Source of the DNA: Anaeromyxobacter terrae
Lineage (GTDB): Bacteria; Myxococcota; Myxococcia; Myxococcales; Anaeromyxobacteraceae
NCBI RefSeq assembly: GCF_022690685.1
Contig: NZ_JALCYY010000042.1
Span: 1-48,142 of the forward strand
Reading direction: 5' to 3'
DNA length: 48,142 nt
Part shown: in pieces, positions 1 through 35,577 of the stretch
Layout: each line of letters starts with the position of its first letter
Position numbering within the stretch: position 1 is the first letter of the stretch
Translations under genes and position numbers: made by a program
Notes under the pieces: generated by a model
Told to the model about the DNA's origin: nothing
What the model saw: only the letters and a program-made list of their open reading frames with translations
The model's database searches: none

Positions 1-756
1 GCCGTGAACGTCACCACCTGGGCCGGGTTCGTGTTCGCCACGCTCACCGTGCACACGCCGCTCACGCAGGTGAGCCCGTCGCCCGCGACGCTGCCCTTCC
101 CGATCCCCGTGGTCCGCGTCGTCACCGTGTACGTCGCCGGCTGGAACGTCGCGGTCACCGTCCTGGCGCTCGTCACCGCCACCGAGCAGACCGGGCCGGA
201 GACGCTGGTGCAGCCGGACCACGACGTGAAGACCGAGCCCGTCTCCGGCACGGCCGTGAACGTCACCACCTGCGCAGGGATCGTGTTCGCCACGCTCACG
301 GTGCAGACGCCGCTCGCGCAGGTGAGCCCGTCGCCCGCGACGCTGCCCTTCCCGATGCCCGTGGTCCGCGTCGTCACCGTGTAGGTGGCCGGCTGGAACG
401 TCGCGGTCACCGTCCTGGCGCTCGTCACCGCCACCGAGCAGACCGGGCCGGAGACGCTCGTGCAGCCGGACCACGACGTGAAGACCGAGCCCGCCTCCGG
501 CATCGCCGTGAACGTCACCACCTGGGCCGGGTTCGTGTTCGCCACGCTCACCGTGCACACGCCGCTCACGCAGGTGAGCCCGTCGCCCGCGACGCTGCCC
601 TTCCCGATCCCCGTGGTCCGCGTCGTCACCGTGTACGTCGCCGGCTGGAACGTCGCCGTGGCCGTGCGCGCGCTCGTCATCGCCACCGTGCAGACCGGCC
701 CCGAGACGCTCGTGCAGCCGGACCAGGACGTGAAGACGGAGTCCGCGCCGGGGGTC
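1..756. repeat. In-frame 252-bp tandem repeat array
   Basis: Units begin at 1, 253 and 505, exactly 252 bp (84 codons) apart. They differ at only a few bases. A fourth, clearly diverged unit starts at 757. The copies encode the InlB-like repeats of the lipoprotein on the minus strand. The array continues off the left edge, so total copy number is unknown. High identity between copies suggests recent duplication or gene conversion. Confidence 0.93.
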
Positions 757-3476
757 GCGGTGAGGGTCACGAGCTGCGCGGGCGTCGTCTTCGGCACCTG
801 CACGGTGCATCCCTCGGACGATCCAGAGGCGCACGCGATCCCGAGGTCGCCCGCGACGCTGCCCTTGCCCAGGCCGGCCGTTCGGACGGTGAGCGCGTAG
901 CTCGTGAGGGCGAAGGTCGCGGTGACGTCCTTCGCCGCGTCCATCGTGACGGTGCAGGTCCCGGTGCCCGAGCACGGGCCCGACCATCCCTGGAACCTCG
1001 AGTCGACGTTCGCCTCGGCGCTCAGCGTCACCGTGGCCGGCGCGTCGAACGTGGCGCTGCACACGGTTCCGCAGTCGATCCCGGAGGGCGAGGAGACGAC
1101 GCGCCCACCGCCCGTCCCGGAGCGCGAGACTCGCAGGGGCGCATGCGTGGTCACGAGCGCCACCCGTGCGCGGGTCGCTCCATCCGACGGGGCCGAGCCG
1201 TCCCAGATGCTGTAGGGCACGAGGACGCTGCCGGGCGGGCCGGCAGCGATCCGAGCTACGAGGCCCTGCTTCGGCGTCGAGCCGATCACGAAGGGATCGG
1301 CGTCGATGGGCATCCCCGACTCGCCCACGCGGACGCCGACCAGGGACTCGCCGGTCGTACCTCGGCTCGAGCAGACGGCGACGTGGTTCTTGCCGTCGTA
1401 CGCCACCCCCCACGTGCCACATCGTGGTTCGGAGGTCAGAAGGAGTCCGCCCGGATCCAGCACCGCCCCGTCCGCAGTGATCCGCGTCGCGTACACGTTT
1501 CCCGTCACGCTGTCGCCCCACGCGACGAGATGCCGGCCCCCGCCGAAGGCGAGCCCGCCCGCGCCCTGCCGACCCGCAAGCGTGACGATCGGGAGCCCCT
1601 GGGGATCGAGGACCCGTCCGTCGATGGCCACGCGCGCTCCGTACACGTCGGAGCCGCCGGTGTTCCTTTCGTCGGTCCAGACCACGAGATAGCTCTGGCC
1701 GTCGAAGGCGAGCGCTGGCCCCGTTTGCCAGCCGGCAGCGGTAGAGACGGCGAAGCCGTTCGGGTCGAGCACGGTCCCACCCGCGGACACGCGAGCGCCA
1801 TAGACGTCCCAGACACCCCCGTTGCGCCCGTCCTGCCACACCACGAGACAGCTCGACCCCGCGCAAGCGATCGCCGCCCTCGTCTGGGCGCCCGCCGCGT
1901 TGCACACGGCGATGCCTCCGGGGTCGAGCACCACGCCGCCGGTCGATACTCGCGCGGCGCGAATGTTCCAATCGGCGGTCGTGCGATCCTCCCACACCAC
2001 GACGTAGCTCGAGCCGTCGAATGCCACCGCGGGCGCGGACTGGTCGCCCGTCGCGGTGGCGATCGGGATCGCGATGTCGTCGAGGACGGCGCCGCTCGCG
2101 CTCACGCGCGCCGCGTACACGTCCGAGCCCGCGCCGCTCCGGTTGTCGTGCCAGACGACGAGGTAGTTGGTCCCGTCGAACGCGGCGCCGCCGACGATCT
2201 GCGTGTTCGCGCCGCTCGTGAACGGGGAGCCGTTGGGAGTCAGCACCTGCCCGGTCCCGTCGACGAGCGTGCCGGAGATCTCCCATCCCTTGTTCGTGTG
2301 CCCGTCGCCCCAGACGACGAGACCGGACGCGCTCCCCCACGCGATCGCCGGGGCCTCCTGGCCGAAGAGGCCCGGCGTGAGGGAGAGCCGATCGAGCACC
2401 GCGCCGTCCGCGCTCACGCGCGAGCCGTACACCTGCGACCCCGAGCCCCAGCCGAGATCGCTCCAGACGGTCACCCAGTCCGTTCCGTCGAACGACACGG
2501 AGGGCGCGTACTGGTTAGGGCTGGCGGAGATGAGGAGGCCGTCGGGATCGAGCACCGTCGCGGCCACGCGTGCGCCGTACACGTCCGAGCTTCCGGGACT
2601 GTTTCGCTCATCTACCCACACGACGAGCGCGGCCGATGGACCGGTCGCGATCGCGGCGTCTCGCTGGGCGCCCGGCGCCGCAGAGACGACCGCCTCGCTC
2701 CCCTCCAGCACGACGCCGGCTGCGCTCACGCGGACGGAGTAGATGTCCGTGTCGCGGGGATCGAGCCCGCTACGGCCGTCCGACCACACGACCAGGTAGC
2801 TCTCGCCGTCGAAGGCGATCGCCGGAGACTCCTGCGTCCCCGCAGCGGCCGACACCGGGAACTCGGCCTCGACCGCGAGCGCGCCCCCGCCGCTCGCGCG
2901 CACCGCGTGAACGCGCGGCATCCCGCCCTGGAGGTCGCTCCAGGCGACGAGGAAGCCCCCACCTCCCCCCGAGACCGCCGGGGAGATCTGGTCGCCGGTG
3001 GCCGCGGAGAGCGGAACCCCTCCGAAGTCGAGCACCTCCCCCGCCGGGCTCACGCGAGCGCCGTAGACGTCGGAGCCGCCACCGCGCGCATCCTCCCAGA
3101 CGACGAGGTACCGCTCGCCGTCGAACGCGACGGCCGGGGCTCGCTGGTTCCCGGGAGCGGTGGAGATCGGGAATCCGTGCGGATCGAGCAGCGTCCCGTC
3201 CGCGCTGACGCGCGCGCCGTAGATGTCCGGGTCGACCCCGTTCCGCTCGTCCTCCCAGACGACGAGGTAGCTCGTGCCGTCGAACGCGACGGCGGGCGCC
3301 CTTCGAACCACGCTGCTGGCGCCCGGGACCGGAGCGTCCATCCCCACCGCTGCGCCAACGATCGGACCGAGCGCGGAGACCGTCGAGCCGTCGGCGACGC
3401 GACCGGCGCTCGGCGCGCCTGGCGAGTCGCAGCCGACGGCGAGCGCGACGAGGAGGACGGGGATGACCCGACGCAT
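1..3476 (-). CDS. Giant repeat-built surface lipoprotein (partial, C-terminus outside window)
   Basis: The frame is open from an ATG at 3476 to the left edge, giving 1158 visible residues. The N-terminus MRRVIPVLLVALAVGC is a lipoprotein signal with Cys16 as the probable lipidated residue. An SD-like GGAGA lies 8 nt before the ATG. Residues ~50-720 hold about 13 imperfect repeats of ~51-55 residues with the pattern AxAFDGxxYLVVWxDxRxGxxDVYGARVS, as expected for a secreted beta-propeller or beta-sandwich array. From ~780 on come ~80-residue Cys-containing repeats with GxGxVxxxxxxxxC and FxxWSGC motifs, resembling divergent InlB B-repeats. From ~907 these become near-identical 84-residue copies. 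It probably sits on the cell surface or is exported, and mediates adhesion or matrix contact; that role is inference. The ligand is unknown. Family recognition is by eye. Confidence 0.85.
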   Translation of the reverse strand, partial: MRRVIPVLLVALAVGCDSPGAPSAGRVADGSTVSALGPIVGAAVGMDAPVPGASSVVRRAPAVAFDGTSYLVVWEDERNGVDPDIYGARVSADGTLLDPHGFPISTAPGNQRAPAVAFDGERYLVVWEDARGGGSDVYGARVSPAGEVLDFGGVPLSAATGDQISPAVSGGGGGFLVAWSDLQGGMPRVHAVRASGGGALAVEAEFPVSAAAGTQESPAIAFDGESYLVVWSDGRSGLDPRDTDIYSVRVSAAGVVLEGSEAVVSAAPGAQRDAAIATGPSAALVVWVDERNSPGSSDVYGARVAATVLDPDGLLISASPNQYAPSVSFDGTDWVTVWSDLGWGSGSQVYGSRVSADGAVLDRLSLTPGLFGQEAPAIAWGSASGLVVWGDGHTNKGWEISGTLVDGTGQVLTPNGSPFTSGANTQIVGGAAFDGTNYLVVWHDNRSGAGSDVYAARVSASGAVLDDIAIPIATATGDQSAPAVAFDGSSYVVVWEDRTTADWNIRAARVSTGGVVLDPGGIAVCNAAGAQTRAAIACAGSSCLVVWQDGRNGGVWDVYGARVSAGGTVLDPNGFAVSTAAGWQTGPALAFDGQSYLVVWTDERNTGGSDVYGARVAIDGRVLDPQGLPIVTLAGRQGAGGLAFGGGRHLVAWGDSVTGNVYATRITADGAVLDPGGLLLTSEPRCGTWGVAYDGKNHVAVCSSRGTTGESLVGVRVGESGMPIDADPFVIGSTPKQGLVARIAAGPPGSVLVPYSIWDGSAPSDGATRARVALVTTHAPLRVSRSGTGGGRVVSSPSGIDCGTVCSATFDAPATVTLSAEANVDSRFQGWSGPCSGTGTCTVTMDAAKDVTATFALTSYALTVRTAGLGKGSVAGDLGIACASGSSEGCTVQVPKTTPAQLVTLTATPGADSVFTSWSGCTSVSGPVCTVAMTSARTATATFQPATYTVTTRTTGIGKGSVAGDGLTCVSGVCTVSVANTNPAQVVTFTAMPEAGSVFTSWSGCTSVSGPVCSVAVTSARTVTATFQPATYTVTTRTTGIGKGSVAGDGLTCASGVCTVSVANTIPAQVVTFTAVPETGSVFTSWSGCTSVSGPVCSVAVTSARTVTATFQPATYTVTTRTTGIGKGSVAGDGLTCVSGVCTVSVANTNPAQVVTFT

Positions 3477-3516
3477 GGAAATCTCCAGGGATGGACGGAC
3501 GGTGCGCCTTTGCCTG

Positions 3517-3558
3517 ACGGTGAATTTCACCGTACGCGACTGCTGACGACGGACGCAA
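3517..3558 (-). promoter_or_regulatory. Promoter with overlapping operator-like palindrome for the giant lipoprotein
   Basis: On the minus strand a -35-like TTGCGT (3558-3553) and a -10-like TACGGT (3534-3529) are separated by 18 nt. A perfect 17-bp inverted repeat, ACGGTGAATTTCACCGT (3517-3533), covers the -10 and extends toward +1, as expected for a repressor site. No regulator gene is adjacent. Confidence 0.45.
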
Positions 3559-3795
3559 GGCGAAAGCCCGACCAGCGCCACACCTACATCCGCCGCGAGT
3601 GGAGCTCTCGCATGCGAGGCGACGAAGCGTCCCGCGCACCGGGGACATCGCCCGCGCGACGTGACGCTTTCGCGACCCCCCGACTCCCAGAGCCCGAGAC
3701 GCACCACCGCTGGGCGCGCGCCGCGCGTGGCTCGCCGCGAAGGACGCCCGCTCCGCCGGTGACCACCCGAGGGCCGACGCGCGTGAGCGGCGATC
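3559..3795. other. Intergenic stretch, nothing recognised
   Basis: This lies between the giant lipoprotein promoter and the end of the ogt-like gene. Open frames crossing it are composition shadows without RBS or family features. I see no convincing hairpin or RNA. Confidence 0.5.
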
Positions 3796-4284
3796 TCAGC
3801 GAGCCTGCGGAAGCGCCGCCCGCTCGTGCTCGAGCAACCACCGCTTGCGCTCCACGCCGCCCGCATACCCGGTGAGCGCGCCGTCCGCGCCGATCACCCG
3901 GTGACACGGGACCACGATGGAGACGGGGTTCCGGCCGTTGGCCGCGCCCACGGCTCGCGCCGCCGTCGGCCGGCCCAGCCGGGCGGCGATCTCCCCGTAG
4001 GTCCGGGTCTCGCCGAACGGGATCTCGGCGAGCGCGCGCCACACCTCGAGCTGGAACGGCGTGCCGCGGGGGCGAAGCGGCAGGTCGAAGGAGGTCCGCT
4101 CGCCCGCGAACCACTCGGCGAGCTGCCGGCGCGCCCGCTCGAGCAGCGCGTCTCCCCGGCCGTCGCGCGCGGCGAGCTCCGGCGCTCCCTGATCCTCCAT
4201 GTAGACCGCGACGAGCGCGTCCGACTCCGCCACCAGCCGGAGCCTGCCCACCGGGCTGTCCATCACGAGCTCACGGTACGTCAT
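3796..4284 (-). CDS. ogt: Methylated-DNA--protein-cysteine methyltransferase
   Basis: 162 residues, normal for single-domain Ogt/AGT. It removes O6-alkyl groups from guanine by irreversible transfer to its own cysteine. The active-site motif VVPCHRVIG is present with Cys127, preceded by the helix-turn-helix segment [12 protein letters not shown] and the ANGRNP segment. The ATG at 4284 overlaps the TGA of the upstream alkA gene (ATGA), so the two are translationally coupled. The pair unites direct reversal (this protein) with base excision and sensing (the Ada-AlkA fusion). Confidence 0.95.
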
Positions 4285-5735
4285 ATGTCCGCTCCTCCCG
4301 CCACCAGGGTCCACAGGTGCATCACCGCGTAGGCACGCCACGGGCGCCACGCCTCGGCGCGCGCCTCGGCGGCCCGGCCGGAGGCTTCGCCCAGCGCGCG
4401 GAGCACGCCGAGGTCCGCGGCGGGGAACGCGTCGGGGTCGCCGACGGCGCGCATGGCGATCACCTCGGCGGTCCAGGGGCCCACGCCGGGCAGCTCGAGG
4501 AGCCCCGCCCGCGCGGCCTCGCCATCGGCGCCCCTGTGGAGAGCGAGACCGCCGCCGGCGACCGACTCCGCCAGCGCCAGGATCGTCCGGGCGCGCGCGC
4601 CGGGCATGCCGGCGCGGGCGATCGGGTCGACCCCGGCCGCGGCCACCGCCTCCGGCGTGGGGGCGAGCCGGTCGAGCCCAGGGAAGGGCGTCGCGACGGG
4701 CTCGCCCAGCGCCGCGGCGAGCCGCCCGCCGACGGTGGTGGCCGCGGCGACGCTGACCTGCTGCCCCACCACGACTCGCACCGCCGCGTCGAACCCGTCG
4801 AACGCTCCAGGGACACGAAGGCCCGGGTTGCGCCGGAGGGAGCGCGAGAGGACCGGATCGCGGCGCAGCCACGCCGCAACGGCGTCGGGTCGTGCGTCCA
4901 GATCGAACAGCCCTCGCAGCCGTGCCACGAGCGGCATGAGCGCCCCCGCCAGCGAGAGCGACACCTCGGCTCGAAGGGCCGGCCGCGCCGGATCGCGCGT
5001 CACCGAGACCCAGCCCGTCCGGCCGCCCAGGCGCACCGTCCGGCGATAGGCGCCGGCCTCCACCTGCTCCACGCGCGCCGTGCACCGCGCCGCGAGGAAG
5101 CCGAGCATGGCGTCCCAGTCCAGCGGGGGGCGGAAGTCGAGGCGGAGCACGAGCGACGTCGCCGGGGCGCCGTCGCCGTGCGCGCGCCGGATCGCCGAGG
5201 GTGCGCGGCCGAAGCGCTGCTGGAAGAGCGCGTTGAAGCGGCGCAGGCTCGAGAAGCCCGCCGCGAAGGCCACCTCGGCCATCGGAAGCGCGGTGTCGTG
5301 GAGGAGCTGCTTCGCGAGCGCCATCCTTCGCGACTGCGCGAGCTCGATCGGCGTGACGCCCAGCTCGGCGGCCACCGCCCGGCGCAGGTGGCGGGACGTG
5401 ACGCCGAGCGCCGCGGCGAGGTCGTCCACCGACGCCTCGTTGAGGAAGCCCTCCCCGATCCGCGACGCCGCCGCGGAGACGAGGCGGGGGACGGCGTCGA
5501 CCGGGCCGCCCCCGGGGGCGAGCTCCGGGCGGCAGCGGAAGCAGGCGCGGAAGCCCTCGCGCTCCGCCTCGGCGGCGCGCGCGAAGAACACGCAGCGGTC
5601 ACGTCGCGGCGTGCGTGCCGGGCAGACCGGGCGGCAGTAGATGCCGGTGGTCCGCACGCCCACGAAGAAGCGCCCGTCGAAGCGGGGATCCCGCGCGGCC
5701 AGCGCGCCAAAGCAGGTGTCGGCGTCGAGGTTCAC
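4281..5735 (-). CDS. alkA: Ada-like sensor / AraC HTH / AlkA DNA-3-methyladenine glycosylase fusion
   Basis: 484 residues in three parts. Residues 1-~80 are the Ada methyl-phosphotriester domain with zinc cysteines C34, C38, C65 and C68. Residues ~85-185 are an AraC-type HTH. Residues ~195-484 are AlkA N-terminal plus HhH-GPD domains, with [16 protein letters not shown] and the conserved Asp in PAADLGV. By family knowledge it excises alkylated bases and probably activates its own operon when methylated at a metal-site Cys. The methyltransferase domain missing from this Ada is supplied by the overlapping ogt. The start is GTG at 5735, with no SD; a -10-like TAGACA ends 6 nt upstream, suggesting a leaderless mRNA. 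Confidence 0.93.
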
Positions 5736-5741
5736 GCCCCC

Positions 5742-5770
5742 TGTCTAGCGGCTCGCGCGAAGCGTGTCTG
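5742..5770 (-). promoter_or_regulatory. Promoter of alkA-ogt
   Basis: On the minus strand CAGACA (5770-5765), 17 nt, then TAGACA (5747-5742). The -10 ends 6 nt before the GTG start, so transcription would begin at or near the start codon. Confidence 0.5.
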
Positions 5771-5949
5771 GCCGTTTTCGGACCTGGGGGCCACGGCACG
5801 ATCCCGGGGCCCGCGAGCTCCCGGACCGGCGCCCGGCCGGGCCGGGCGACGGGCACGCTCGCGTTCCTGCCACCCGCCGTGAGGCGATGTGGGCGGCGCA
5901 CTGCGGCGGGACGGCGGGCCTTCGCTCCACCGAGGCCGCGCGACCGGGT

Positions 5950-5978
5950 TTTCCAACGATCGGTGGAGCGGATAGCAT
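5950..5978 (+). promoter_or_regulatory. Promoter of the AAA+/TPR operon
   Basis: TTTCCA (5950-5955), 17 nt, TAGCAT (5973-5978), each 4/6 to consensus. Only 6 nt separate the -10 from the GTG at 5985, and there is no well-placed SD, so a leaderless transcript is likely. It is divergent from the alkA promoter. Confidence 0.5.
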
Positions 5979-5984
5979 CCCCTC

Positions 5985-7313
5985 GTGACCAGCGACCCCG
6001 TCGTGCTCGCGCTCCGCGCCGCCATCGCCGCGAACGACTCCGCCGAGCTGCGCGCCGCGCTCGGAGAGCACCTGCTCCGGTCCGGCGCGCCGCGAGAGGC
6101 GCTCCTCGAGCTCGAGGCCGGGCTCCGGCTCGCGCCCGGCTCCGGCCCGCTCCTCGACGCCGCGGCGCGTGGCGCGGAGGCGAGTGGCGACCCGGGCCGC
6201 GCCGCCGCATACCGGCTCGCCGCGAAGGCGATCGCGGGCGCCTCGGAGGCGGCCCCGCTCTCGCCGCCGGCGCCGATCCCCGCCCCGCCGGAGGCGGCTC
6301 CCCGCGAGCACGACGCCGAGGACGACCTCGACGAGGAGGAAGACGACGAGGTCGGGGACGATGCGCCGGCCCGCGGCGAGCGGCTCGCCGGTGGACCGAA
6401 CCTGCGCCTCCTCTCCAGCGAGGGCGAGCCGATCGATGACGACGCGCCCCCGCCCGTGGCGTTCGCAGACGTGGGCGGGATGGACGAGCTCAAGGCGCGG
6501 CTCGAGCGGAGCTTCCTCGGGCCGCTCCGCGATCCCGAGACGTACCGGCGCTTCGGCAAGAAGATCGGCGGCGGGATCGTGCTCTACGGCCCGCCCGGCT
6601 GCGGGAAGACGTTCCTCGCCCGCGCGCTCGCCGGCGAGATCGGCGCGCGCTTCACCGAGGTGGGCCTGTCTCAGGTGCTCGACATGTGGTTCGGCGAGAG
6701 CGAGCGACGGCTCCACGAGCTCTTCGAGAACGCGCGGCGCCGCGCGCCGACCGTGCTGTTCTTCGACGAGGTGGACGCCCTCGGGCAGCGCCGCTCGCAG
6801 CTGCGCGGCACCGCCGGGCGCAACCTCGTGAACCAGCTCCTCTCGGAGATGGACGGGTTCGCGTCGCGGAACGAGGGCGTGTTCTTCCTCGCGGCGACGA
6901 ACCACCCGTGGGACCTCGACCCGGCCCTGCGCCGGCCCGGCCGCTTCGACCGGCTCGCCTTCGTGCCGCCGCCGGATGCGGAGGCGCGGCGGCGCATCCT
7001 GGAGCTGAAGCTCGGCGAGCGGCCGGTCGCGCCCGGCACCGATCTCACGCGCGTCGCGCGCGTGACCGACGGCTTCAGCGGCGCGGACCTCTCCGCCCTG
7101 GTCGAGGCCGCCACCGAGCTCGCGATCGAGGCGACCCGCAAGAAGAAGGCGGAGCAGCCCATCGACGACGGGCTCCTCGCGCGCGCCGTCAAGGACGTGA
7201 AGCCCTCGACGCGCGCCTGGTTCGAGGTGGCGCGCAACCACGCGATCTACGCGAACGAGGGTGGGGCCTACGACGACCTCCTCGAGCACCTCAAGGCGAT
7301 CAAGCTCGCATGA
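5985..7313 (+). CDS. AAA+ ATPase, Cdc48/spastin-like single ring
   Basis: 442 residues. Residues 1-~90 form helical TPR-like repeats (LRAALGEHLLRSGAPREALLELEAGLRL). Residues ~105-155 are an acidic linker. The AAA+ core follows, with Walker A GPPGCGKT (202-209), pore-loop MWFGESE, Walker B VLFFDEVDAL (D261, E262), sensor-1 AATNHPWDLD and arginine fingers in RRPGRFDR. There is no FtsH protease domain, so it is probably an unfoldase or remodelling ATPase rather than a protease. The next gene overlaps by ATGA and encodes a TPR membrane protein, likely its adaptor or membrane anchor; that is inference. The substrate is unknown. Confidence 0.9.
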   Translation: MTSDPVVLALRAAIAANDSAELRAALGEHLLRSGAPREALLELEAGLRLAPGSGPLLDAAARGAEASGDPGRAAAYRLAAKAIAGASEAAPLSPPAPIPAPPEAAPREHDAEDDLDEEEDDEVGDDAPARGERLAGGPNLRLLSSEGEPIDDDAPPPVAFADVGGMDELKARLERSFLGPLRDPETYRRFGKKIGGGIVLYGPPGCGKTFLARALAGEIGARFTEVGLSQVLDMWFGESERRLHELFENARRRAPTVLFFDEVDALGQRRSQLRGTAGRNLVNQLLSEMDGFASRNEGVFFLAATNHPWDLDPALRRPGRFDRLAFVPPPDAEARRRILELKLGERPVAPGTDLTRVARVTDGFSGADLSALVEAATELAIEATRKKKAEQPIDDGLLARAVKDVKPSTRAWFEVARNHAIYANEGGAYDDLLEHLKAIKLA

Positions 7314-8233
7314 GCGAACCCGGCTTCCAGGAACGGATCGAGCGGGCGCGCGCAGCGCTCGAGGTGGGTCGCCTCGACGAGGCGGAGCGCGCCGCGCGCG
7401 GCGCCCTCGCCGTGGATCCCGCCGCCGAGGAGGGCCACGCGCTCCTCGCGCGCGTGCACCTCAAGCGCGGCGCGCACGCCGAGGCGCTGCGGGCCACGGA
7501 GGCGGGGATCGCCGCGACGCCCGACTCCGAGTGGCTCCACCAGCTCCGCGCCCTCGCGCTGAGCGCGATGGGGCGCGGTGACGAGGCGCTCGCCGCCGCG
7601 GACGAGGCGGTGCGCCTCGAGCCCGAGCTCGCGCCGGCGCACTACGTGCGCTCCGTCGTCCTCGAGGCGATGAAGGACCTCCCCGAGGCGCGCGCGGCCG
7701 CCGACCGCGCCGTCGAGCTCGACCCGGAGGACGCCCGCTACCACGCGCAGCTCGGCGATCTCTGGCTCGCGAGCGACCCCGCTCGAGCCGAGCGGCACTA
7801 CCGGGAGAGCCTCGCCCTCGACCCGGCGCGCGCCGACACCCTCAACAACCTCGGCGTCGCGCTGAACGGCCAGAAACGTACGCGCGACGCCGCGCTCGCC
7901 TTCCGCTCCGCCGTGATCCTCGACCCGACGCACAAGGTCGCAAAGCAGAACACCCATGCCTCCGTGCGCAAGCTCGCGGGCGGCGGCGTGCTGTTCGCCG
8001 TCGCCATGGGGGTGACGCAGGGCGCGCGGATCGTGGAGCGGCTCGGCCGGGACACGAGCGAGACCGTGCGCTGGGTCGCGCTCGCGGTCGTGCTCGCGGG
8101 CATCGCCGCCACCTGGGGGATCTGGTTCTGGCGACGCACGGCGGGGATCCGCAAGCTCGCGGAGAGCGATCCGCAGCTCCACGCGATCTACGTGAGGCTC
8201 GAGGCCGACCGGAAGGCGGGGCGGCTGCGGTAG
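7310..8233 (+). CDS. TPR-repeat protein with C-terminal membrane anchor
   Basis: 307 residues. Residues ~1-215 are about six TPR units (for example RADTLNNLGVALNGQKRTRDAALAF). Two hydrophobic segments follow: one near residues 222-240 (GGGVLFAVAMGV) and one near 260-282 (VALAVVLAGIAATWGIWFW). The TPR part would face the cytoplasm. ATG overlaps the stop of the AAA+ gene (ATGA), so synthesis is coupled. A TPR scaffold on the membrane could present clients to the ATPase; this is inferred from pairing and domain type only. Confidence 0.88.
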   Translation: MSEPGFQERIERARAALEVGRLDEAERAARGALAVDPAAEEGHALLARVHLKRGAHAEALRATEAGIAATPDSEWLHQLRALALSAMGRGDEALAAADEAVRLEPELAPAHYVRSVVLEAMKDLPEARAAADRAVELDPEDARYHAQLGDLWLASDPARAERHYRESLALDPARADTLNNLGVALNGQKRTRDAALAFRSAVILDPTHKVAKQNTHASVRKLAGGGVLFAVAMGVTQGARIVERLGRDTSETVRWVALAVVLAGIAATWGIWFWRRTAGIRKLAESDPQLHAIYVRLEADRKAGRLR

Positions 8234-8327
8234 CGGAGCGCGTGCCCGACGGCGGCGCCCCGAAGGGAGCGATGGCCCTTCCGTCCTTCCCGCCCGGAAG
8301 GCGTCCAACGAGAATGCGGCGGACGCC

Positions 8328-9008
8328 ATGTCCAGCGACCCGATCGCACGCTGCGAGGAGCGCGTCGCTTCCCTCGCTGCCTCCTCGCTCGCGCGGGCGC
8401 GCGACGAGGGCGATCTCGCGGTCCTGCTCGGCGGGGTGTGGACGATCGTCGAGGAGGAGCTCGCGGCCGGCCGTCCCGCCGGCAGCCCCGCGCCCGCGTG
8501 CGGTCCGGGATGCGCGGCGTGCTGCACGGTGAACGTCGGGACGCTCGCGATCGAGGGGGCGGTCGCCGCGGCCTTACTCCGGCGAGACGTCCCGGCGATC
8601 GAGCTCCCCACGCTGGCGGCGACGCTCCGCGCCTTCCACGACGGCGTCCGGTGGCTCGAGGACCGGGAGCGCATCGCGGGCAGGATCGCGTGCCCGTTCG
8701 CCGATGCAGCCGGGCGGTGCGCCATCCACGCGGCGAGGCCACTCGCCTGCCGCAGCATCAGCTCGCTCGATCCGGCCGAGTGCCGCCGCGCGCTCCGCGA
8801 GCTCGCAGACGACGAGCCGGGCCTCGTGCGGATGGACTGGCTGCAGAAGGCCCTCAACGACGCGGCGCGCGTGACCCTCTCCGAGGCGCTCGCCGCCCGC
8901 GGCCTGGACGGGCGCTTTCGCGACGTGTCCGGAATGACGGCCGCGTTCCTCGGCGACCCGGGGCTGGTCACCGCGTTCCTCGCCGGGCGACGGCTCCCGG
9001 TCGAGTGA
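8328..9008 (+). CDS. YkgJ-family cysteine cluster protein
   Basis: 226 residues. The zinc/iron-chelating cysteine cluster of the UPF0153/YkgJ family is visible: CGPGCAACC (C58, C62, C65, C66), then CPF, CAIHAARPLACRS. The function of the family is not settled; a bound metal or cluster is presumed. It starts about 95 bp after the TPR gene on the same strand and may or may not be cotranscribed. No strong SD is present before the ATG at 8328. The C-terminal ~80 residues carry no recognised motif. Confidence 0.85.
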   Translation: MSSDPIARCEERVASLAASSLARARDEGDLAVLLGGVWTIVEEELAAGRPAGSPAPACGPGCAACCTVNVGTLAIEGAVAAALLRRDVPAIELPTLAATLRAFHDGVRWLEDRERIAGRIACPFADAAGRCAIHAARPLACRSISSLDPAECRRALRELADDEPGLVRMDWLQKALNDAARVTLSEALAARGLDGRFRDVSGMTAAFLGDPGLVTAFLAGRRLPVE

Positions 9009-17967: not shown

Positions 17968-20900
17968 ATGGCGGACGGGATCTACCCGAAGCCCATCACC
18001 TCCCCGGAGCTGGCCGGGGAGAGCGAGGCCCTGTCGTCGCTGCTCATGGAGCTCGCGAGCGCGCCGGAGCGGGATCCCGGCGACCTCCCTCGCCCGATCG
18101 CGGCGGGGCAGCGGGTCGGCCGGTTCGAGCTCCTCCGCGAGGTGGGCCGCGGCGGCTTCGGCGTCGTCTTCGAGGCCCGGGACACCGAGCTCGGGCGGCT
18201 CGTCGCGTTCAAGGCCATGCGCCCGTCGCTCGCGCAGCCGGCGCTGCTCGAGAAGCCGCTGCGCGAGGAGGCGGAGGCGGCCGCCCGGCTCAACCACCCG
18301 AACGTCGTCACGCTGCACGACTACGGGATCCACGAGGGCACGCCGTACCTCATCCTCGAGCTCCTCCGCGGCGAGACCCTCCAGAAGCGGCTCCGGCGCG
18401 GCCCGATGGCGCCGCTCGAGGCCGTGCGGCTCGCGCGGGACGTCGCGCGCGGGCTCGTCCACGCCCACGCGAACGGCGTCGTCCACCGGGACCTCACGCC
18501 GGGAAACGTCTTCCTCACGGACGAGGGCGGCCTCAAGATCCTCGACTTCGGCCTCGCCCGCCTGCTCGACCGCGCCAGCCTCGCCGGCGGCACCCCGGCG
18601 TACATGGCCCCCGAGCAGCTCCGCGGGGAGCCCGGGGACGCCCGCGCGGACGTGTTCAGCGCCGCGGTGATGCTCTTCCAGACGCTCGCCGGCCGGCTCC
18701 CGTTCCCGCAGATCGAGGGCCGGAGCGCGGCGCTCGATCCCGGACCGCCGCCGCCGCTCCCCCTGCACGACGCGCCGCCCGAGCTCCCCGCGCTGCTCGC
18801 GAGCGCCCTGTCGAAGGATCCCGCCGGGCGACCGCAGAGCGCGAGCGCGCTGCTCGCCGCCCTGCAGCGCGTGGAGGAGGCGTACACCGAGCGCGCCGCC
18901 GCCGCCTCCCGGGCGCTGCGCCACCACCGGCTGCGCCGGCTCGCGGCGGTGCTGGGCACGATCGCGATCGCCGCGGCCTCTGGCGCGGCGGTGCTCGCGC
19001 TCCGGGCGCGCGCCGAGGCCGAGCGAGCCCTGCGCGCCTCGCGCATCGCGAGCGCCGCGGAGGGCGCCTCCGATCCGCTCGCGGCCGCGCTCCTCATGTC
19101 TGAGCTCGGCGACGATCCGCCCCCGCGCGCGCTCGAGATCGCGCAGCGGATCCTGTCGGAGCCGATCCCCATCGCCGTCCTCGACCACCCGCCCGGCGGG
19201 CTCGGGCTCGCGGTCAGCCCCGACGGGCGTCAGGTCGCCGTGGGCGTCGGGATGACGGCAGCCGGCGACGGCACCCCGGCGGCGGGCGTCGCGATCTGGA
19301 ACGCGGACGGCACCGGCGGCGCGCGCGTCCTCACCGCCCCGGGCATGCACACGACCGCGCTCGCCTTCACGCCCGACGGGGCGCGCGTGGTGGCCGGCGC
19401 GCACGACGGCGAGCTGCGCGTGTTCCGCGCCGACGGGAGCGGCCCGCCCCTCGTGCTGTCCGCCGGGTCGAGCCCGCACGCGACGCTGGCGGTCGCGCCC
19501 GACGGCAGATCCGCCGCGGTCGGCGCGCTCGACGGGCGCGCGTGGATCGTCCCCCTCGACGGCACGCGCCCGGCGCGCCAGCTCATGCACGACGGCGCGG
19601 TCCTGGCGCTCGCCTACGGGCCCGACGGCGCGCGGCTCACCACCGGCGGCGGGGACGGGCACCTGCGCATCTTCGACGCGCGCTCGGGCGCGCTCCTCGC
19701 CCGCGTGACCCTCCCCGGCGGCGCGCTCTTCGCGCTCGCCTGGGCGCCGGACGGCCGCTCGATCGCCACCGCCTCCGAGGACGGGGTGGCGCGCCTCTTC
19801 ACCGGCGACGGCACGCCCCGCGCGGCCTTCGGCGCGCCGGGCGTGCCGCTCTCCTCCGTCGCGTTCAGCCCCGACTCGCGGCGGATCGCGATCGCGTCGC
19901 AGGACGGCTCGGCGCGGATCTACCCCGTCACGTCGCCCGCGCGCGAGGTGCGCCTCCGCGGCCACCGCGGCGCCGTCACCGACGCGCGCTTCAGCCCGGA
20001 CGGCGCGCACGTCCTCACCGTCGGAGCGGACGGCACGGCGCGGGTGTGGGCGGCCGACGGCGAGGGCGCGCCGCTCGTGCTCCGCGGCCACACGGCCTTC
20101 GAGGCGACGTTCTCCCCGGACGGCACGCGCATCTTCACGCGTGGGAAGGATCGGACGATCCGCGTCTGGAGGGCCGAGGATCCGCGGGCGCGGGGCGTCC
20201 TGCGCGGCCACGGCGAGCTCGTCGACACGGTCGAGTGGACGCACGACGGCTCGCGCATCGTCACCGCGGGGCACGACGGCACGGCGCGGATCTGGCCGAT
20301 CCACGGGGATGGCGCGCCGCTCCTCATCTCCGATCCCGGCCGCGTGCTGCACTCGGCGGACCTGGACCGTGACGAGCGGCGGCTCGTGACCGCGTCGGAG
20401 GACGGCACGGTGCGGATCTGGGACGCGCAGGACGGAAGGCTGCTCCGCGAGCTTCGCGGCCACACGAGCTCGGTGCTCTCGGCGGCGTTCAGTCCGGACG
20501 GCACCCGCGTCGCGAGCGCCTCGCTCGACGGCACCGTGCGCATCTGGCCCGCCGACGGGGGCGGCGAGCCGCTCGTGCTCTACGGCCACGAGAAGGGCAT
20601 CACCTCCGTGTGCTGGACTCCGGACGGCCGCTTCGTGGTCTCCGCCTCGCAGCTCGACGCGACGGTCCGCATCTGGCCAGTGGACGGCTCGCCCGCGAGC
20701 GTCATCCGCGCGGAGCGGAGCGTCTTCCGCGCGACCGTGACGCCCGACGGGACGCGCCTCCTCGTCGCCGAGGAGAACGGCCCCCTGCACGTGTACCGGC
20801 TCGAGCCGCTCGAGGAGCTGCCGCCCATCGCGGCGCTGCCGGAGGGGCTCTTCTCGGCGGCGGCGAGCCCGGACGGCGACCGGATCGCGCTCACCTCGCA

Positions 20901-21270
20901 CGATGGCATCGTGCGCGTGTACCCGGCCTCCGGCGTGGGCGAGCCGCTCATCCTGCGCGGGCACGACGGCAGCGTGGGCCACGCGGCCTTCAGCCCGGAC
21001 GGCACCGAGCTCGCGACCGCGTCGATCGACGGCACCGCGCGCGTGTGGACCGTGTCGTGGGGGCGCGTGCTCGCGCTCCTGCGTGCCTCGACGACCGCGT
21101 GCCTGCCGGTCGCGCACCGGGTCCAGATCCTCGGGGAGGGCGCCGCCGAGGCGGAGCGGCGCGCCGCCGCGTGCGAGCAGCGCCACGGCCGGGCCCCGGA
21201 GCCGCGCCGGCCTCCACGGAGCCCGCCGGCCGCCGGGCTCCCGCCGCCGCCCTCGGCGCGAGGAGGATGA
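17968..21270 (+). CDS. Transmembrane Ser/Thr protein kinase with WD40 repeats
   Basis: 1100 residues. The kinase domain (~50-300) has a Gly-rich loop (VGRGGFGVV), Lys82 in VAFKAM, catalytic loop HRDLTPGN (173-180), DFG (193-195) and an APE-like MAPEQ. A transmembrane helix follows at ~325-348 after a basic stretch. A ~650-residue run of about 14 WD40 units follows (~405-1045), with FSPDGTRVASASLDGTVRIW as a clear example. The topology would put the kinase in the cytoplasm and the propellers in the periplasm as sensor. The catalytic loop has Thr where most Ser/Thr kinases have Lys; I recall this variant in bacterial kinases. It is cotranscribed with the ECF sigma factor. Confidence 0.95.
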   Translation: MADGIYPKPITSPELAGESEALSSLLMELASAPERDPGDLPRPIAAGQRVGRFELLREVGRGGFGVVFEARDTELGRLVAFKAMRPSLAQPALLEKPLREEAEAAARLNHPNVVTLHDYGIHEGTPYLILELLRGETLQKRLRRGPMAPLEAVRLARDVARGLVHAHANGVVHRDLTPGNVFLTDEGGLKILDFGLARLLDRASLAGGTPAYMAPEQLRGEPGDARADVFSAAVMLFQTLAGRLPFPQIEGRSAALDPGPPPPLPLHDAPPELPALLASALSKDPAGRPQSASALLAALQRVEEAYTERAAAASRALRHHRLRRLAAVLGTIAIAAASGAAVLALRARAEAERALRASRIASAAEGASDPLAAALLMSELGDDPPPRALEIAQRILSEPIPIAVLDHPPGGLGLAVSPDGRQVAVGVGMTAAGDGTPAAGVAIWNADGTGGARVLTAPGMHTTALAFTPDGARVVAGAHDGELRVFRADGSGPPLVLSAGSSPHATLAVAPDGRSAAVGALDGRAWIVPLDGTRPARQLMHDGAVLALAYGPDGARLTTGGGDGHLRIFDARSGALLARVTLPGGALFALAWAPDGRSIATASEDGVARLFTGDGTPRAAFGAPGVPLSSVAFSPDSRRIAIASQDGSARIYPVTSPAREVRLRGHRGAVTDARFSPDGAHVLTVGADGTARVWAADGEGAPLVLRGHTAFEATFSPDGTRIFTRGKDRTIRVWRAEDPRARGVLRGHGELVDTVEWTHDGSRIVTAGHDGTARIWPIHGDGAPLLISDPGRVLHSADLDRDERRLVTASEDGTVRIWDAQDGRLLRELRGHTSSVLSAAFSPDGTRVASASLDGTVRIWPADGGGEPLVLYGHEKGITSVCWTPDGRFVVSASQLDATVRIWPVDGSPASVIRAERSVFRATVTPDGTRLLVAEENGPLHVYRLEPLEELPPIAALPEGLFSAAASPDGDRIALTSHDGIVRVYPASGVGEPLILRGHDGSVGHAAFSPDGTELATASIDGTARVWTVSWGRVLALLRASTTACLPVAHRVQILGEGAAEAERRAAACEQRHGRAPEPRRPPRSPPAAGLPPPPSARGG

Positions 21271-32026: not shown

Positions 32027-33991
32027 TTGGGCTCGACTTCCCGTTCACCGGGGCGCCCGTGCGCCCTCATCGCCGCGCTGGCGCTCGTCCTCGCGCAGCA
32101 GGCGCGCGCCGACGGCGCCGCGCAGGACGCGGCCCCGCCCGAGGGCGAGCCGCCCGTGCGGCTCCCCGAGGTCGAGATCCGCGTGCCGCGCGCGGAGGTC
32201 GAGAAGGATCCGACCGCCTCCGCGACGGTCGTGTCCGCGAGCCGCTTCGAGGGCGAGGCGAAGGACGTGGCGCAGCTCCTCGCCACCGCCCCGGGCGTCT
32301 CGGTGACCCGCTACGGCACGCTCGGCCAGCTCGCCACCGTCTCGGTGCGAGGCGTCGCCGCCGACGGCGTGAAGGTGCTGCTCGACGGGCTCCCGCTCGG
32401 CACGGCCGGCGGCGGGGTCGATCTCTCGACCATCCCGCGCCAGTGGATCTCGCGCATCGAGGTGGTGCGCGGCGCGGCGGGCGCGCAGTTCGGGGCGGGC
32501 GCGCTCGGCGGCGCGGTGAACGTCGTGATGCGCCAGGGCGAGCAGGGCGAGCTCGCCGCAGAAGCGACCGCCGGCGCGTTCGGCACCTACGCGATCTCCG
32601 CCGACACCGTCGCCGCGGTCGGGCCGTTCTCGCTCTTCGTGGCCGCCACCGGCGAGGACACGCAGGGCGACTTCAGCTACCTGTTCGACGACCGGCCGTC
32701 GCTGCCAGGGAGCCCGCTCGAGGACCGGACGCGGCAGAACAACGGCGCGCGGCGCGTCGGCGCGATCGGGAAGCTCGGCGGGGTCGCCGGCGGCTTCCGC
32801 GTCGATGGCCTCGCGCAGCTCACGTCCGGGAGGCGCGAGCTTCCCGGCTCGCCCTACCAGCCGACGCCCGGCGACTGGGAGGAGGACGGGCGGGTGCTCG
32901 CGATGCTGCGGGTCGCGCGCGAGGTGCGCCCTCGCCTCACGCTCGCCGCTCGTGTGTTCGGCCGGCGCGACCTCCTCGACACGCGGCTCGCCGCGACGGG
33001 CCCGGACCCCACGCGGCAGCGCGGCGGCGCCGGCGGGCTCGAGCTCGAGGCGGGGCTCTCGCACGGGCCGGGCGTCCTCACCGCCGCCGCCTCCGCGGAG
33101 GTGGAGGGCTACTCGAGCGACGCGCTCGGCGGGACGCGGAACCGGGCCGGCTTCGCGGGCGCGCTCGCGGAGGACCTGCTCCTCGCCGGCGGCCGGCTGC
33201 GGATCGGTCCGTCGGTGCGGGCGGAGCGGACCGGCGGATACTCGGGCATCTCCGCGAAGCTCGGCGCGGCGTTCGAGCTCGCCCGCGGCCTCGCGCTCCG
33301 GGCGAGCGGCGGACGCACGTACCGCGTACCGAGCTTCGCCGAGCTGTACCTCGAGCAGGGGCTCCTCGCCCCGAACCGCGACCTGCGGCCGGAGACGGGC
33401 GCCGGCGCGGACGCGGGGCTCGTCTACGACGGCGCGCTCGGGCTCCTCTCCGTGGGCGGCCACGCGACCGTCTACGACGACATCATCACCTACGAGCCGG
33501 CGAGCGTCGGCAGGTTCCGTCCGTTCAACACCGGCCGCGCGTTCGTCGCGGGCGTGGAGGCCGAGGCGGCGACTTCGCCCTGGCGGCGCGCGCTCGGGCT
33601 CGCCCTCTCCGGCGCGTACACCTTCCTCCCGACGGAGGTGCTGCGGGGCAGCTCCGACGTGCTCGGGAACGCGCTGCCCCGCCGGCCGCGCCACCGCGTC
33701 TACGCGCGCGCCGCGATCTCGCCCGGCAGGCTCGGCGCCCACTTCCAGGTCGAGCACGTGCGCGACCAGTACCTCGACATCCGGAACCAGGCCCGGCTCC
33801 CGGATCAGACGATCCTCGGCGCCGGCGCCTCGGTGCGAATCCTTCGCGAGCCGCTCGTGGCGCTGCACCTCGAGGTCGAGAACCTCGGCGACGACCGGAC
33901 GCTCCTCGACGGCTACGGCAACCCCCTCCCCGGCCGGACGTGGATGGTCACGCTCCGCGCGGGGACCTCTCGACGTGAAAGGACCCCATGA
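32027..33991 (+). CDS. btuB: TonB-dependent vitamin B12 receptor
   Basis: 654 residues. This outer-membrane beta-barrel imports cobalamin using TonB energy. A signal peptide (CALIAALALVLAQQARA) is followed by a plug domain at ~50-165 (DVAQLLATAPGVSVTRYG, VSVRGVAADGVKVLLDGLPLG, RIEVVRGAAGAQFGAGALGGAVNVV). The barrel includes the family motif FRPFNTGRAFVAGVEAE and ends with the C-terminal segment NPLPGRTWMVTLRAG. No obvious N-terminal TonB box was located beyond LPEVEIRVPR. The start is the unusual codon TTG at 32027, chosen because it is in frame and has a strong SD; no ATG/GTG in this frame lies suitably close. The riboswitch upstream supports B12 as substrate. Confidence 0.93.
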   Translation: MGSTSRSPGRPCALIAALALVLAQQARADGAAQDAAPPEGEPPVRLPEVEIRVPRAEVEKDPTASATVVSASRFEGEAKDVAQLLATAPGVSVTRYGTLGQLATVSVRGVAADGVKVLLDGLPLGTAGGGVDLSTIPRQWISRIEVVRGAAGAQFGAGALGGAVNVVMRQGEQGELAAEATAGAFGTYAISADTVAAVGPFSLFVAATGEDTQGDFSYLFDDRPSLPGSPLEDRTRQNNGARRVGAIGKLGGVAGGFRVDGLAQLTSGRRELPGSPYQPTPGDWEEDGRVLAMLRVAREVRPRLTLAARVFGRRDLLDTRLAATGPDPTRQRGGAGGLELEAGLSHGPGVLTAAASAEVEGYSSDALGGTRNRAGFAGALAEDLLLAGGRLRIGPSVRAERTGGYSGISAKLGAAFELARGLALRASGGRTYRVPSFAELYLEQGLLAPNRDLRPETGAGADAGLVYDGALGLLSVGGHATVYDDIITYEPASVGRFRPFNTGRAFVAGVEAEAATSPWRRALGLALSGAYTFLPTEVLRGSSDVLGNALPRRPRHRVYARAAISPGRLGAHFQVEHVRDQYLDIRNQARLPDQTILGAGASVRILREPLVALHLEVENLGDDRTLLDGYGNPLPGRTWMVTLRAGTSRRERTP

Positions 33992-35577
33992 CCCTCCGCT
34001 CCCCCCTCGCCGTCGCGCTCGCCCTCGCGCTCGCCCTCGGCTGCAAGAAGGACCTCGTCTGCCCCTCTGGCGAGGTCGAGTGCGGCGGCCGCTGCGTGTC
34101 GCTCCTCACGGACGCGGCGAACTGCGGGGCGTGCGGCGCGGCCTGCGGCGCCCTCGAGGTGTGCGGCGCCGGGAGCTGCGGCTGCGCGCCGGGCGTCGGC
34201 GTCTGCGGCGGCGCCTGCACCGACCTCGCCCGGGACGCGCAGCACTGCGGCGCCTGCGACGTCGCCTGCGGCGCGGCGGACTACTGCACGACGCAGGGGG
34301 ACGCCACCGCCTGCACCGCGGCATGTCCCGATGGGTTCACGGCGTGCGGACGGTCGTGCGTCGAGCTCGCGACGGACCGCCAGAACTGCGGCGCGTGCGG
34401 CAAGGCCTGCGGCGCGGGGGAGTCGTGCCGCGACGGCGCCTGCCGCGCCGAGGTGTTCGTCGCCTGCTACGCGACGGGGGACGTGCGGCCGGTGACGGTC
34501 GACCTCGCCCCCGCCGGCGCCCCGCGCCTGTCGCGCGGCGGTCCCACGGCGCTCGCGATGGGCGCGGACGTGCTCTACACCGCGAACGGCTTCCCCGCCG
34601 GGGTGGGCGTCGTGCCCATCGACGCGAGCCTGCCGACGAGCCTCACCGTGCTCCCCGGGAACGACCTGCAATACCTGACGACGTACGCCGGCGCGGTGCT
34701 CGCCGCGAACTCCGGCGTCGGCACGCTCGTGGTCCTCGACGCGGCGGGCGGGGTGCTCGACGAGATCGTGCTCCCCGGCGACGCTCCGAACCCCCACGGG
34801 CTCGCCGTCGCGGGGACGACCGCGTACGTCGCGCTGTACGGCAACGGGCCCACGGGCGACCAGACCGCCCCGGTCGGCCAGCAGATCGCGAAGATCGATC
34901 TCTCCGGGCTCGCCGAGTGCGCGAAGCCGGATGCGCCGGCCTGCGGCGCCGGCGGCGCCTGCGCCGCAGGGCGCGAGTGCCGAGACGGCCGCTGCCGTGC
35001 GCGCTGCGGCGAGGTCAAGGGCACGATCGACGTCCTCGCGGTCCCGGGCAGCTCCGACGCCCCGGGCTACCCGTTCCCGAACCAGGTGGCGACGGTCGGA
35101 GGCCGCGTGTTCGTGTCGCTCCCGAACTTGAAGTTCGCGGACTTCGGCGGGGGCTTCGCCGGCTACTTCGCGCCGGCCGGCAACGGGCGGCTGCTCGTCA
35201 TCGACACCGCCGCGAGCGACGCGACCTCGATCGTGGACCTCGGGCCCGGCTGCAAGAACCCGGGCGACGTCGCGGTGCTGGGCTCGACGGTGTGGATCGC
35301 GTGCGGCTCGTTCTCCTTCCCGACCGAGGCCCCGGGCGCGGTCGTCCCGGTCGACGTCTCGGGCGCGCCGAAGGTCGGCGCGGCGGTCGACGCGAGCGCC
35401 ATCGTGCCCGGGAACCTGGCGTTCTGCGGCGGACGGGGCTACGTCACGGATCAGAGCTCGGGCAAGGTGCTGCCCTTCGACCCGGCGTCGCGTGCCACGG
35501 GCGGCGCGACCGAGGTCTGCCCGGTGAATCCGGACACGCACTTCGCCTGGGTGTCCGACATCGCATGCAGCGAGTGA
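33988..35577 (+). CDS. Cys-rich beta-propeller-like lipoprotein in the B12 operon (candidate BtuG analogue)
   Basis: 529 residues. The N-terminus ends in LALALGC with Cys19 as the probable lipid site; KKD follows. Residues ~25-150 hold three Cys-rich units with the motif D-x2-N/H-CGACG, known from myxobacterial surface proteins. Residues ~150-529 are beta-strand-rich repeats of the YVTN/NHL/PQQ style (DVLYTANGFPAGVGVVPID, GTLVVLDAAGGVLDEIVLPG, GLAVAGTTAYVALYG), interrupted by a second Cys cluster at ~310-345. ATG overlaps the btuB stop (ATGA) and btuF starts within its 3' end, so it is a core member of the operon. In Bacteroides the propeller lipoprotein BtuG caps BtuB and captures B12. A similar job here is inference; no sequence match to BtuG is claimed. 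Confidence 0.85.
   Translation: MTLRSPLAVALALALALGCKKDLVCPSGEVECGGRCVSLLTDAANCGACGAACGALEVCGAGSCGCAPGVGVCGGACTDLARDAQHCGACDVACGAADYCTTQGDATACTAACPDGFTACGRSCVELATDRQNCGACGKACGAGESCRDGACRAEVFVACYATGDVRPVTVDLAPAGAPRLSRGGPTALAMGADVLYTANGFPAGVGVVPIDASLPTSLTVLPGNDLQYLTTYAGAVLAANSGVGTLVVLDAAGGVLDEIVLPGDAPNPHGLAVAGTTAYVALYGNGPTGDQTAPVGQQIAKIDLSGLAECAKPDAPACGAGGACAAGRECRDGRCRARCGEVKGTIDVLAVPGSSDAPGYPFPNQVATVGGRVFVSLPNLKFADFGGGFAGYFAPAGNGRLLVIDTAASDATSIVDLGPGCKNPGDVAVLGSTVWIACGSFSFPTEAPGAVVPVDVSGAPKVGAAVDASAIVPGNLAFCGGRGYVTDQSSGKVLPFDPASRATGGATEVCPVNPDTHFAWVSDIACSE

Follow-up and report, generated by a model that had tools for sequence, protein, structure and literature searches.

The locus at the left end of this stretch of DNA raises the question of whether Anaeromyxobacter terrae encodes a lipoprotein whose length changes as tandem units are gained and lost, and of how many units the gene holds where it runs off its contig. 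The window analyzed here is contig C80 taken end to end, 48,142 bases of a 5.65-Mb genome in 142 contigs. The gene is a minus-strand open frame that starts with an ATG at 3476 and leaves the contig at base 1, and its window part encodes residues 1-1158. From the N- to the C-terminus, the predicted protein is laid out as a lipobox, blade repeats of ~52 residues, two diverged units of family PF18998, and units of 84 residues (Table 1). Its upstream neighbor encodes an O6-methylguanine-DNA methyltransferase on the same strand and its downstream neighbor a putative zinc metallopeptidase on the opposite strand; the neighbors give no clue to its function. Scans for promoters and terminators in the vicinity of the gene were negative, a result of little weight at this G+C. 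Elsewhere in the window, we noted a protein kinase domain fused to WD40 repeats (17968-21270) and a protein with two stretches matching a plant STIG1-like family (33988-35577).

Tandem Repeats Finder placed an array at 1-746 of the window with a period of 252, 3.0 copies, 92% matches, and no indels, at a score of 1310; the other 10 rows for the window scored 51-69. The near-identical, in-frame units with an exact 252-bp period described in a first-pass annotation are thus present. Taken as 252-base blocks, 1-252 and 253-504 were identical at 239 of 252 positions, 1-252 and 505-756 at 230, and 253-504 and 505-756 at 225. Block 505-756 equals 1-252 exactly over its first 152 bases and carries 22 differences in its last 100, which run into the diverged neighboring unit. 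The annotation had counted three units next to one diverged unit. Read in protein register, the window holds two complete 84-residue units (residues 948-1031 and 1032-1115) plus the first 43 residues of a third, and the adjoining diverged units, which do exist, number two (residues 779-859 and 860-947). Since a unit is 84 codons long, gain or loss of whole units keeps the frame, as had been proposed. A chance origin of the array was ruled out by its exact, indel-free period and by the match of its units to a protein family.

Table 1. Features of the lipoprotein gene and of one paralog. Positions refer to the window unless stated otherwise.
Feature	Position	Strand	Basis
5' part of lipoprotein gene, residues 1-1158	3..3476	-	Open frame; intact 1625-aa A. 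soli SG29 counterpart
Signal peptide and lipobox L-A-V-G-C, Cys residue 16, Asp at +2	3429..3476	-	Translation by inspection
Blade repeats of ~52 residues, one seven-bladed beta-propeller and a probable second	1167..3329 (outer limits approximate)	-	W-motif spacing, AF2 model, fold matches
Diverged B-repeat unit A	900..1142	-	PF18998 match 906-1067, 28.3 bits
Diverged B-repeat unit B, 88 residues	636..899	-	PF18998 match 642-800, 31.3 bits; 3.4% DNA difference to A. soli counterpart
Array unit 1, 84 residues, 4 Cys	384..635	-	PF18998 match 390-563
Array unit 2, 84 residues, 4 Cys	132..383	-	PF18998 match 138-314
Array unit 3, cut by contig end, continues in C70	1..131	-	127-base overlap with end of C70
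152-bp exact repeat, first copy, breaks assembly	1..152	.	Exact match to 505-656
152-bp exact repeat, second copy	505..656	.	504 bp (two units) from first copy
164-bp exact repeat copies of paralog on C55	Offsets ~6033 and 6291 within C55:31000-42000		

To follow the gene beyond base 1, we searched its own genome with the lipoprotein and obtained 16 matches, the second strongest of which lies at the very end of contig C70 with 96% identity to residues 950-1149. None of the 16 placed more of this array on a third contig, as C80 and C70 match at 96% or above and the others at 58% or below. The window opens with the same 127 bases with which C70 closes. On C70 the frame completes the third unit, passes through two additional complete units, and meets a stop codon directly behind them. 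The array therefore reaches past the units in the window, as had been suspected. The smallest lipoprotein that fits both contigs has 1367 aa and a mature mass of ~134 kDa, which makes the label "giant" in the first-pass annotation a mild overstatement. The 127-mer at the window start recurs at 505 as part of a 152-bp exact repeat whose copies lie 504 bp, or two units, apart. Because this repeat exceeds k = 127, the value inferred from the C70/C80 overlap, the contig ends inside the array. A k = 127 graph of the joined sequence gave four unitigs: one ends at the last base of C70, one is the 152 bp found at 1 and 505, one runs for 606 bp through the loop, and one is the remainder. The set of 128-mers was the same for zero, one, and two extra passes of the loop and was altered by one pass fewer. 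The left edge of the window is thus an assembly break caused by the 152-bp exact repeat, with a 504-bp loop that cannot be counted at k = 127, and the short-read trouble that the annotation feared at this edge is real: the array is cut there and may be collapsed. As any number of extra passes fits the graph, the array has 5+2n units, where n is the number of extra passes; as long as the deposited contigs lack no branch of the graph, the count is odd and at least five.

We then asked how a relative compares. Across nine Anaeromyxobacter genomes, our own included, seven have some match to the lipoprotein, and among the matches listed only the sister species Anaeromyxobacter soli (strain SG29), beside our own genome, matches along the whole query. 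Family-wide, some match to the blade part occurs in 9 of 24 genomes, in most cases a weak one over part of the sequence, and a search of the PLSDB plasmids with the blade part returned no close match, the three records obtained having 27-31% identity. The gene is syntenic on both sides: one A. soli SG29 contig is colinear across it with window bases 1-8231 and with all of the C70 end that was retrieved, which makes C70 and C80 neighbors. The A. soli counterpart has 1625 aa from the same start, inside an open frame of 1701 residues, and carries units A and B followed by eight 84-residue units. Its count of eight should be sound, since exact repeats in its array reach 72 bp at most and its locus is a single unitig at k = 73, 77, 99, and 127. 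Eight is even and 5+2n is odd, so unit number differs between the two species whatever the value of n, provided that no graph branch is missing from the deposited contigs. This comparison bears on the view that nothing but a collapse at the contig edge is involved and that a fixed array merely meets an assembly gap. The 152-bp repeat at k = 127 does fully explain the break, and short-read genomes under-count such arrays, as described for Ilm of Yersinia ruckeri with its tandem units of ~300 bp (PMC6868369). Our array resembles Ilm in being made of tandem units that short reads under-count; Ilm differs as a surface adhesin with more than 20 Ig-like units identical even in DNA. Yet the A. soli array, which has no exact repeat above 72 bp and forms one unitig at every k used, still has another count, and we regard a fixed array with a mere gap as very unlikely.

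How, then, could the count have come to differ? The four complete units of A. terrae differ from one another by 3.6-7.1% over six pairs (92.9-96.4% DNA identity), and the eight A. soli units by 7.9-19.8% over 28 pairs, while the closest of the 32 cross-species pairs differs by 10.3%. The nearest neighbor belongs to the same species for 11 of the 12 units, the exception being A. soli unit 6, which is nearest to an A. terrae unit. When the species labels were assigned in 495 ways, the observed gap between between-species and within-species distances was reached by the true assignment alone and the neighbor count by 9; these counts are no probabilities, as the units are not independent. An unrooted tree of the units splits the species at a bootstrap of 90, and with the diverged units as outgroup the support is 47/50 for the A. 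terrae units and 57/0 for the A. soli units, so that tree support for grouping by species is moderate to weak. Within A. soli, units 1-4 and 2-5 pair at a spacing of three units (bootstrap 87 and 96), and 2-5 pair again in the outgroup tree (97/97), a pattern that suggests block duplication. The 252-bp units would be similar enough for whole units to be gained or lost in frame, through unequal crossing-over or through replication slippage. Replacement of units since the split from A. soli would leave units resembling those of their own species and counts that differ, eight versus an odd number of at least five.

Homogeneous units would equally be expected from gene conversion alone. If it kept them alike, copy number could be stable within a species, length change rare, and the difference between the species old. 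In keeping with this, homogenization is visible here and within-species number is not, and the 152-bp stretch of identity stops partway through a unit, which a conversion tract can do as well. Speaking against it, the counts differ between the species (5+2n from the graph versus eight), and the three-unit pairing in A. soli points to duplication of a block; we therefore consider conversion with a stable copy number unlikely. Unequal recombination remains our preferred route, a plausible one that we infer from the units and that draws its support from the comparison between species. The local yardstick for this comparison is uneven. The syntenic 3' flank differs by 11.3% between the species and window 1001-2000, in the blade region, by 21-32%, while window 751-1000 differs by only 2.4% and unit B by 3.4% against a background of ~11%; the units of A. 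terrae could pre-date a late exchange of the unit B segment. As an observation in its own right, window 751-2000 places a fast-evolving propeller beside an oddly conserved, or exchanged, segment.

Paralogs of the lipoprotein gave a mixed picture. Their units were split with a Trp-anchored pattern, which caught more of them than our first pattern and yet missed some. In the pair formed by C55 of A. terrae (C55:31000-42000, an open frame of 1375 aa) and C1 of A. soli, each of units 1-5 matches its counterpart, in the same order, at 86-91%, so turnover of units is not universal and such arrays can be partly stable. The last two C55 units scored, not all units having been caught, have no in-order counterpart, with best identities of 77% and 70%. 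C55 itself carries a 164-bp exact repeat with its two copies at a distance of 258 bp; as this repeat exceeds the inferred k of 127, the copy number of the C55 paralog may be collapsed too. With this repeat and the incomplete splitting of units, the contrast between the arrays is not clean. For the pair of C62 (A. terrae) and C56 (A. soli), the outcome was mixed, several C62 units having two nearly equal partners. These two paralogs are open frames of 2097 and 2179 aa with blade repeats followed by 11 and 12 PF18998 matches, respectively, and an N-terminal part that looks, from its motifs, like a subtilisin-like protease. By eye, C56 also contains a three-unit block twice.

We next considered what the array encodes. 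The lipoprotein matches PF18998 (divergent InlB B-repeat, Flg_new_2) at 70.9 bits versus a cut-off of 23.6, and single matches on C80 and C70 score 28.3-32.1 bits; in A. terrae, every complete 84-residue unit and both diverged units, A and B, lie above the cut-off. One A. soli unit falls under it (22.5 versus 23.6 bits). Our protein is no internalin; it is a Gram-negative lipoprotein with its units behind propellers and four Cys in every 84-residue unit, which we infer to form disulfides. A model of the array (337 residues, 9 sequences) reached a pLDDT of 87.8 and a pTM of 0.63. It matched best to domains of the CnaB/SpaA type, from pilins and adhesins of Gram-positive bacteria: the top Foldseek match is 6fwv (E 3e-11, TM 0.29), PitA 7vcr gave Z 9.0 with an rmsd of 11.2 over several domains, and the single CnaB2 domain 8bdw gave Z 6.3 with an rmsd of 2.7 over 73 aligned residues. 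Whole-chain TM-scores by query length were low (0.08-0.33 among the 50 matches listed), and Z reached 8 or more for 6 of 980 chains, values below 8 possibly reflecting only a common arrangement; we therefore claim for the modeled domains a CnaB/SpaA-like fold at the level of the single-domain fold class. Searching solved structures with a profile of the array turned up no relative, the best match being a thioredoxin at E 0.067. Among the papers listed by a search of open-access literature, none dealt with the InlB B-repeat structure and none, by title or abstract start, with the divergent InlB B-repeat itself.

The older family of ~52-residue repeats noted in the first-pass annotation is likewise present, as 12 W-motifs spaced 51-56 residues apart, with one extra motif match at residue 378. 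The blade part, folded by AF2 with 13 aligned sequences, gave a mean pLDDT of 80.7 and a pTM of 0.57. Residues 22-386 of this model, which hold seven of the W-motifs, match the CylK propeller with Z 40.4 and an rmsd of 2.6 over 350 aligned residues, and they match the PLL-type lectins (BP39L, CV39L, PHL, PLL2/4/5) with Z 26.9-31.0 and an rmsd of 2.5-2.9; a profile match to CV39L had E 3.2e-4. The propellers of CylK and the PLL-type lectins are seven-bladed, those of the lectins having sugar-binding sites between the blades, and the model indicates that the first blade group is a seven-bladed beta-propeller too. From the repeat spacing, a second propeller probably follows the first. In overall fold, the one feature compared, the first propeller is like the PLL-type lectins, but its identity to them is 9-17%, it is fused to an anchor and a repeat array, and CylK, an enzyme, fits it better. 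The NCBIfam beta-propeller repeat TIGR04275 scored below its curated cut-off (81.5 versus 85 bits). A possible relative of the blade repeat is the 42-residue RIVW repeat, found in archaeal and bacterial surface proteins (PMC2447325). We also noted a row of nearly identical ~50-residue blades in the metagenome-assembled bacterium GMC4 (locus 5665-8556), which looks like a recently amplified propeller.

Where such a protein would sit in the cell depends on its N-terminus. A lipobox motif is present by inspection (MRRVIPVLLVALAVGC), as it is with ALGC in the A. soli counterpart, and the predicted mature N-terminus is CDSPGAP, with Asp at +2 and Pro at +7. In Escherichia coli, Asp at +2 retains lipoproteins in the inner membrane; in Myxococcus xanthus, Ala at +7 is the signal for export to the matrix, and Lys at +2 is associated with an inner-membrane location (8 of 12) (PMC3222651). 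Neither M. xanthus signal occurs in our protein, which has Pro in place of the matrix-directing Ala at +7, a rule not established for Anaeromyxobacter. As neither the E. coli nor the M. xanthus sorting rule points to the outside, surface exposure is a guess. The protein may instead stay in the inner membrane or periplasm, in a structural or binding role, with neutral changes in array length, a location compatible with the other readings. Asp at +2 and the missing Ala at +7 fit this location, whereas M. xanthus inner-membrane lipoproteins tend to Lys rather than Asp at +2 (same source); the four Cys per unit and the lectin-like propellers fit an exported protein but do not separate periplasm from surface. 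We hold an inner-membrane or periplasmic location to be possible, though doubtful.

The nearest known system is that of the Periscope Proteins, described (PMC8201768, PMC9704523) as having highly identical tandem domains in varying number, with recombination proposed. Our lipoprotein shares with them a row of highly identical, separately folding domains, a number that differs between relatives, recombination as the proposed route, and, from the four complete units, the DNA identity given above; the top Foldseek match of the array, 6fwv, is a SpaA stalk example in a figure legend of the Periscope review (PMC9704523). Unlike the anchor, stalk, and tip described there, our protein has an N-terminal lipid anchor and a C-terminal array closed by a stop codon immediately behind its final unit. 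With no further domain following it, the array holds no head away from the cell. Periscope number variation is reported at the strain level, whereas here the difference is seen between two species. A rod-like array at the cell surface is a further feature of Periscope Proteins; what our model gives is the CnaB/SpaA-like fold of single domains. The lipoprotein thus lies near to, without strictly being, a Periscope Protein and, by analogy, may work like one in changing length.

Taken together, the whole is best explained, and in our judgment probably so, as a lipid-anchored propeller protein with an array turned over by unequal recombination, the favored route, or by slippage, and cut by assembly. 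It would be an envelope protein with beta-propellers beside the anchor and a C-terminal row of small CnaB/SpaA-like domains capable of disulfides. Host immune pressure is the explanation usually invoked for such length change. A bolder and rather improbable reading is a reversed length-variable protein, with propellers at the anchor and a recombining, headless array as its free end, itself the working part, its length serving for reach, for shielding, or for avidity; the bacterium, living free in soil, would lack that host immune pressure. Our search of open-access literature on Anaeromyxobacter tandem repeats, beta-propellers, and lipoproteins, by title or abstract start, found nothing on this protein among the papers listed. 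The array is a fairly ordinary, though good, example of a repeat protein with changeable length, a kind already known. Here a repeat within the gene accounts for the contig boundary down to the single base, a syntenic relative has the array resolved, and short-read assembly leaves the length of such a protein undefined. As a free-living bacterium, the organism would allow the turnover of repeats to be followed in the absence of immune selection.
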